From: Synergistales bacterium
Lineage (GTDB): Bacteria > Synergistota > Synergistia > Synergistales > Aminithiophilaceae
Direction of reading: 5' to 3'
Length of the DNA: 46,044 nt
NCBI GenBank assembly: GCA_018433595.1
Contig: JAHDQY010000016.1
Span: 1-46,044, forward strand
A program made the translations under genes and the position numbers. Positions 41,301-42,569 of the stretch are shown here, one piece after another (position 1 is the stretch's first letter; each line of letters starts with the position of its first letter). Under the pieces are notes generated by a model that worked only from the letters and a program-made list of their open reading frames with translations, ran no database searches and was not told the origin of the DNA.

Positions 41301-41532
41301 CCTGGAGGATCTCCTCGACCACCCCGGCCGTCAGGGGCCGGAGGTAGACCACATCGGCCAGATCGAAATCGGTCTGGATCGTGGCGGGGTTGCTGTTGAG
41401 CAGGACGACGCGGTACCCCTCCTCCTTGAGGGTCCGGCAGGCCTGGCTTCCGGAGTAATCGAACTCGGCGGCCTGGCCGATCCGAATCGGGCCGGAACCG
41501 AGAACGAGGATGCTCGAAAGATCCGTCTTCAT
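38365..41532 (-). CDS. carB: Carbamoyl-phosphate synthase large subunit
   Basis: This 1055-residue protein has two homologous ATP-grasp halves. The first opens with [19 protein letters not shown], includes [13 protein letters not shown], and ends at an oligomerisation domain. The second opens with [20 protein letters not shown] and includes [12 protein letters not shown]. A MGS-like regulatory domain ends the protein, about 910-1055. It makes carbamoyl phosphate from bicarbonate, 2 ATP and ammonia, feeding pyrimidines and arginine. The active-site blocks look normal, which matters because the CarA partner seems to lack glutaminase activity. ATG 41532 overlaps the carA stop (ATGA). Confidence 0.96.
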   Translation of the reverse strand: [1055 protein letters not shown]

Positions 41533-42569
41533 CGCCCTGCCTCCCTACACTGATCGATAAAGGAATCAAAGAGACGCCCGCTCTCTTGAGGGCCCGGCGC
41601 CGCCTCGGGGTGAAACTGAACGCCCCAGACCCCCGTCCCGGCGTGACGGATACCTTCGATGGTGCCGTCGTCTCCGTTGCGGAAAGTCACGACGATGCCC
41701 TTCCCCTTGATGGAATCGTCGCGGAGGACGTAGCCGTGGTTCTGACTCGTCACGAAGCCCCGTTTCGACTCGACGTCGATGACGGGCTGGCCTCCCCGAT
41801 GTCCAAAGGGGAGCCTCTCCGTTCGGGCTCCCAGGGCCAGGGCCAGAAGCTGCATCCCCAGCCCGACGCCGAAGAAAGGGACCTTGCCCAGAAGCCCTCG
41901 GACGACGGAGATCTCTCCGGCAAGGAGGGCCGGGTCCCCCGGACCGCCGCCCAGGAGAACACCGTCGGGCCTCAGGGCAAGAAGGGCTCCGCCCGGCATG
42001 TCGTGAGGAACGACGTCAACGGCGCAGCCTCGGGCCTGGAGAGTCCGGACGACGCCTTCCTTGACGCCGTAGTCGACGATGACGATCCGGGGCCCCTCTC
42101 CGGGGTAGGAACGGCGGACCTTCGTCGAGACCAGGGAGACCTTCGGAGTCTCGTCGACCTCGACGGTCCCCTCCCCTCCCGCCGGGAGAGCCCTCCCGAA
42201 AAGGGGACCACGGCGGCGGAGGTGGCGGACGAGGCGCCTCGTATCGACGCCTCCCATCCAGAAGAGCCCCTCCCGCTCGACCCAGCCGAAAAGATCCGGG
42301 CCGAGGCCTTCGTCTCGGCAGGGCACGGCCGCAACGATTCCTCGCGCCCGAATCCCGGAACTCTCGAGGGGATCGGCTCCGACGCCGCAGCAGCCGACCA
42401 TGGGAAAAGAGAAGACGACGATCTGTCCCGCAAAGGAGGGATCCCTCAGGGCCTGAGGAAAACCTCCGGCAAGGGTCGTAAAGACCACCTCTCCGGAATC
42501 GCAGGCTCCCAACCGGCCCACACCGGGCCATCGCGTCCCGTCGCTCAACAGCAGTTCAAGGGCTTCCAT
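41529..42569 (-). CDS. carA: Carbamoyl-phosphate synthase small subunit lacking the catalytic Cys
   Basis: This 346-residue protein has the CarA N-terminal domain and a class I glutamine amidotransferase domain (about 155-346). Family blocks are clear: GVDTRRLVRHLR, PHDMPGGALL, GGGPGDP, SQNHGYVL, and the His320-Pro-Glu322 of the triad in QFHPEAAPGP. The nucleophile elbow, normally GICLGHQ, reads GVGLGMQ: Gly236 replaces the catalytic Cys and Met239 replaces the His. It should therefore not hydrolyse glutamine. In mammalian CPS I the same Cys is Ser and the enzyme uses free ammonia. The rest of the domain is not decayed and carB overlaps it, so the subunit is probably kept for structure or ammonia channelling. 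Confidence 0.93.
   Translation of the reverse strand: MEALELLLSDGTRWPGVGRLGACDSGEVVFTTLAGGFPQALRDPSFAGQIVVFSFPMVGCCGVGADPLESSGIRARGIVAAVPCRDEGLGPDLFGWVEREGLFWMGGVDTRRLVRHLRRRGPLFGRALPAGGEGTVEVDETPKVSLVSTKVRRSYPGEGPRIVIVDYGVKEGVVRTLQARGCAVDVVPHDMPGGALLALRPDGVLLGGGPGDPALLAGEISVVRGLLGKVPFFGVGLGMQLLALALGARTERLPFGHRGGQPVIDVESKRGFVTSQNHGYVLRDDSIKGKGIVVTFRNGDDGTIEGIRHAGTGVWGVQFHPEAAPGPQESGRLFDSFIDQCREAGR

Follow-up and report, generated by a model that had tools for sequence, protein, structure and literature searches.

The window, which is the whole 46,044-nucleotide stretch of Synergistales bacterium DNA that was analysed, carries the adjoining genes carA and carB for the two subunits of carbamoyl-phosphate synthetase (CPS) (Table 1). 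The two open reading frames (ORFs) are separate and share four bases. The carA frame begins with ATG and contains no internal stop, and a pseudogene produced by a frameshift or stop was ruled out because the frame is intact from end to end. The promoter upstream of carA matches the consensus at 12 of 12 positions, and the congeners keep it with a GCCTCAAGAAAA tail. No regulatory RNA was found among the Rfam matches in the window, the only match being a tRNA gene (RF00005) at positions 221–295 on the reverse strand.

Table 1. Features of the carAB locus, in window coordinates.
Feature	Position	Strand	Basis or remark
carA, 346 aa, CPS small subunit with a glutaminase site predicted to be inactivated	41529..42569	-	ORF, domain matches and alignment with E. 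coli
Retained His320 and Glu322 of CarA (E. coli His353, Glu355)	41604..41612	-	Alignment
CarA codon 236, GGG (Gly) for the nucleophile Cys (E. coli Cys269)	41862..41864	-	Cys in 93/94 CarA
CarA codon 208, Gly for a near-invariant Asn (E. coli Asn240, SNGPGDP strand)	41946..41948	-	Asn in 92/93 others
CarA codons 260-261, between which Asn of GGN(H/Q)PV (E. coli Asn294) is deleted in frame	41787..41792	-	Asn in 93/93 others
carB, 1055 aa, large (synthetase) subunit, intact	38365..41532	-	Start overlaps carA stop (ATGA)
CarB codons 523-527, private A523S and P527L	39952..39966	-	Motif VDGCAGE lost or changed in CarA-less CarB
CarB Gln260 and Arg263 (E. coli Gln262, Arg265), kept in the window, changed in most CarA-less CarB	40744..40755	-	
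Promoter TTGACA-16-TATAAT upstream of carA	42751..42778	-	Conserved in congeners

By descent the small subunit belongs to CarA, since it combines the N-terminal PF00988 domain with a class I amidotransferase domain (PF00117) and its gene adjoins carB. The protein passed the general CarA model NF009475 (282 versus 221 bits) and failed TIGR01368, the model of the glutamine-hydrolyzing CPS small subunit (284.8 versus 307.35 bits), whose cut-off was passed by the CarA of seven tested relatives. The TIGR01368 class has the Cys nucleophile of a Cys-His-Glu triad, and Gly236 stands in its place here. Annotation by the general model needs care, as a gene with a predicted dead glutaminase still passes it. 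Alignment with E. coli CarA showed that the second half of the triad is retained, as the preliminary description of this DNA had stated. In the AlphaFold2 model (mean pLDDT 77, built from only four sequences), residue 236 sits at the nucleophile elbow, between strand 232–235 and helix 237–245. The closest PDB structure to the model was E. coli CarA (1cs0_B, TM 0.88), which agrees with the earlier claim that the rest of the fold remains. Relocation of the nucleophile, for example to the private Cys61, was unsupported; the model has a pLDDT below 50 in that stretch.

The nucleophile position was compared in 94 CarA sequences, 90 from the phylum of the window and four from elsewhere. Cys was present in 93 of them, including the three congeners (67–68% identical to the window CarA), and Gly in the window alone; CarA of two genomes read later than this set (G002 and G099) also has Cys. 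The elbow reads GVGLGMQ in the window and FGICLGMQ in the congeners, and GGG versus TGT at codon 236 amounts to two base changes. Gly in place of the CarA Cys, the central claim of the preliminary description, was thereby confirmed. As far as these sequences reach, the loss is private to the window species; a clade-wide loss, which the same description had proposed to look for in related genomes, was dropped because the three congeners keep Cys.

Two further lesions lie in the glutamine site and suggest that the activity was given up rather than mutated once. Asn208Gly turns SNGPGDP into GGGPGDP, in the strand that contributes an oxyanion-hole amide, and the conserved Asn of a second motif is deleted in frame (Table 1). 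The only other window change at columns conserved in 92–93 of 93 CarA was Ile173Val. Neither Asn208Gly nor the deleted Asn had been recorded in the preliminary description. Residue 239 was found to be His in 44, Asn in 26, Met in 7, Leu in 7, Cys in 7 and Thr in 3 of the 94 CarA. Met239 is thus ordinary variation and no lesion; the earlier reading of it as a second lesion was dropped, since the three Cys-bearing congeners also have Met. The argument that had been built on both residues against a sequencing error stands for the Cys-to-Gly change and falls for Met239. Sequencing error remains unlikely, as it would have had to produce two changes of two bases each plus the loss of a whole codon while leaving the frame intact.

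The source genome (2.53 Mb, 99.65% complete) encodes one CarA and one CarB, and the search for a second carA, suggested earlier as a check, found none in it. The genome's remaining six class I amidotransferases all keep Cys in their elbows (GVCLGHQ, GICYGMQ, GLCLGMQ, GICRGMQ, GICRGFQ and GICLGMQ), which supports the claim that the loss is specific to CarA. The control first offered for that claim, GatA, proved unsuited and says little here, as it is an amidase-family enzyme (PF01425) rather than a class I glutaminase and is encoded 12 kb from carA. A foreign contig was also dropped as an explanation, because the same congeners closely match not only CarB (85%) but also three carbamoyltransferases encoded on other contigs (84–96%). 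Pyrimidine genes are present in the genome, indicating that carbamoyl phosphate is needed. With the nucleophile and two further residues affected, a single carA and an intact CarB, the loss of the glutaminase function that had been predicted earlier is strongly supported, and on sequence grounds the window CarA is very likely without glutamine hydrolysis.

CarB has not followed the course of CarA. It passes its curated model, matches 176 of 177 columns that are invariant in CarA-bearing relatives and is 85% identical to its congeners, versus 68% for CarA. In FastTree trees, which are approximate, the CarA branch of the window is lengthened (0.42 versus 0.26 and 0.285 in congeners) and the CarB branch is not (0.118 versus 0.137 and 0.083). 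Relative-rate tests lent modest support to faster change in CarA, with chi-square values of 1.7 to 6.5 depending on the outgroup (the amidotransferase domain reached 7.8), and were null for CarB. Pairwise dN/dS of carA (about 0.23–0.25) indicates past constraint, with synonymous sites so near saturation that a recent loss would not show.

Across the phylum, CarB often occurs without CarA. The CarB domain (PF02787) was found in 146 of 188 genomes and CarA (PF00988) in 93; both were present in 91 and CarB only in 55, or about 53 without G100 and G164, in which CarA fragments occur. Genomes of one to eight contigs and 99–100% completeness (G011, G015, G031 and G173) are among the CarB-only set. 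Neither CarA nor an amidotransferase lay near 19 of the 20 CarB loci examined, the exception being G078, whose genome carries CarB of both kinds. Downstream of the lone CarB of G138 are ORFs that resemble pyrK, pyrD and pyrF by eye. On the CarB tree the CarA-less sequences form six groups (g3; G031; G125; G173/G174; G138/G139; g16+g17+g26), a count that leaves G034 apart; by parsimony on the gene tree, CarA was lost in about six lineages. Carbamoyl phosphate has users in the phylum, as 184 of 188 genomes encode members of the carbamoyltransferase family. The loci L233-L258 (G011, G015, G031, G125, G138, G173, genus g16 and others) encode full-length CarB in genomes without CarA, and these CarB are probable ammonia-dependent CPS. 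A literature search found no relevant paper describing a CarA-less CPS in this phylum.

Several genomes depart from a simple presence or absence of CarA. Of the two CarB in G078 (L250), one lies beside a Cys-bearing CarA and the other stands alone and is of the CarA-less g16 type. G087 (L249, L158) also has two, the lone type on C11 and a second CarB with CarA on C42. CarB ORFs of about 1340–1410 aa, versus the usual 1060 or so, were observed in G115-G119, several of G143-G162, G034 (L259), L266 and L267, which suggests that roughly 300 additional residues are fused to them.

The 177 invariant columns were defined on 27 CarB from CarA-bearing genomes, G104 being left out. CarA-less lineages keep nearly all of them and change positions 263, 520, 523 and 525, which align with E. 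coli Arg265, Asp530, Ala533 and Glu535. These four positions account for two of two departures in G011, all three in each of G012, G015 and G138, and two of three in G031; the older CarA-less groups have more departures elsewhere too. The signature zone was picked after part of the data had been seen, and the Fisher values are exploratory. Arg265 of E. coli CarB is a wall residue of the ammonia tunnel. In E. coli, CarA contacts two parts of CarB, the carboxyphosphate domain and the oligomerisation domain (residues 401–552; PMC6245113), and the changed positions fit such a contact; they are probably where CarA is bound. The window CarB keeps Q260, R263, D520, C522 and E525. Its sole departure among the 177 columns, A523S, falls in the signature motif, with P527L near by, which makes the window species look transitional; we read its CarA-CarB interface as still present and starting to relax. 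The motif would predict whether a CarB has a CarA, and it suggests that in G034, a 75% complete genome, CarA is absent from the assembly only. G104 (L262) is an exception to this rule: its CarA has Cys (L159) and the only CarB found lies on another contig and lacks the motif; this genome is 90% complete with 5% contamination, and a second carB may be missing.

Several known systems bear comparison with the window. E. coli CarAB (CPS II; PDB 1cs0, C269S mutant 1c30) has the same two-subunit architecture and operon, a common CarA fold and a CarB that aligns end to end. It relies on glutamine, whereas the window CarA has naturally lost the nucleophile and two conserved Asn, for which the laboratory nucleophile mutants of E. 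coli CarA are the engineered counterpart. Rubino and colleagues (1986) reportedly had Cys269Gly among theirs. PMC6245113 cites Rubino et al. 1986 for such nucleophile mutants. Mammalian CPS1 (PDB 5dot/5dou) resembles the window CarA in that the catalytic Cys is replaced and the glutaminase-like domain is kept; the human enzyme, with Ser at the nucleophile place, is unable to use glutamine and uses ammonia, as the preliminary description had stated, and has a changed old ammonia tunnel with another ammonia entry proposed (PMC4655335). CPS1 differs as one fused mitochondrial chain of about 1500 residues that needs N-acetylglutamate, whereas the window has two bacterial subunits and Gly. The CarA-less CarB of the phylum (L233, L236, L243, L245) share with the window a conserved CarB core and the lack of a working glutaminase subunit; they have no CarA and a changed motif 519-525, whereas in the window CarA is still encoded and most of the motif is kept. 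Thermococcales also obtain carbamoyl phosphate without glutamine, by a carbamate-kinase-like CPS and an arginine-derived route (PMC6022934, PMC13260591), with a different enzyme fold or a reversed carbamoyltransferase reaction instead of CarB.

The explanation we consider likely is that CarA, its glutaminase dead, persists to give structural support to an ammonia-fed CarB. The CarAB complex would be expressed and would presumably assemble; CarA with Gly236 would be unable to form the glutamyl thioester and would stay on as the structural partner, and CarB would make carbamoyl phosphate from bicarbonate, two ATP and, as we infer, free ammonia from solution. That CarA has been lost outright several times within this phylum supports ammonia-dependent synthesis, and an ammonia-releasing amino-acid fermenter would be suited by such an enzyme. 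Against this reading, E. coli CPS can do without glutamine only when ammonia is at very high concentration (PMC6245113), and carbamoyl phosphate could come from arginine.

That last route is the basis of a rival explanation, in which CarAB is fading and contributes little, and the glutaminase is free to decay. Arginine deiminase would yield citrulline, ornithine carbamoyltransferase would convert it to ornithine and carbamoyl phosphate, and aspartate carbamoyltransferase would use the latter. On contig C58 of the genome, a deiminase-like gene scoring 453 bits against a cut-off of 489 adjoins an ornithine carbamoyltransferase gene, and the genome also has a carbamate kinase above its cut-off. 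Thermococcus kodakarensis is an established case of the route (PMC13260591), and many genomes of the phylum are without carA, carB or both. We nevertheless regard this rival as unlikely, because CarB shows no decay, the carAB promoter is kept, and an intact CarA coexists with these arginine genes in the congeners G021 and G022. The ammonia and arginine routes may run together. The species is known from one assembly and its three congeners have Cys, which counts against an ammonia-fed CarB and would favour recent lesions without settled physiology, be it an error of assembly or an accident that is mildly harmful or confined to the strain. This is quite improbable, because one active site carries three independent lesions, all of the in-frame kind described above, and both CarB and the remainder of the window are normal. 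We give even less credence to a CarA turned regulatory, which would bind glutamine without hydrolysis and report nitrogen status to CarB: the presumed glutamine-pocket residues Ser45, Gln240, Asn277, Gly279 and His320 are kept, yet that site also holds Asn208Gly and the Asn deletion.

On a wider scale, it seems somewhat probable that CPS in this phylum has switched repeatedly from glutamine to ammonia. About six lineages would have lost CarA and eroded the probable contact motif, and the window species would be somewhere along this path, its CarA dead but still encoded and its CarB motif showing a first change. Bacterial CPS is taken to use glutamine, as PMC6245113 states for E. coli. If the switch is real, free ammonia can feed the entry step of pyrimidine and arginine synthesis in bacteria. 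The graded series of intact, dead and absent CarA allows one to ask what role the glutaminase subunit has beyond glutamine hydrolysis, and the window would supply nature's equivalent of the laboratory nucleophile mutants, from a phylum in which CarB is often found without its partner.

A third carbamoyltransferase of the source genome (G000:C1:2170-2604; L187, L215) is 95–96% identical in the congeners. It is followed by genes like those for dihydropyrimidinase/hydantoinase and molybdenum hydroxylase, and may serve catabolically, in the breakdown of purines or hydantoins.
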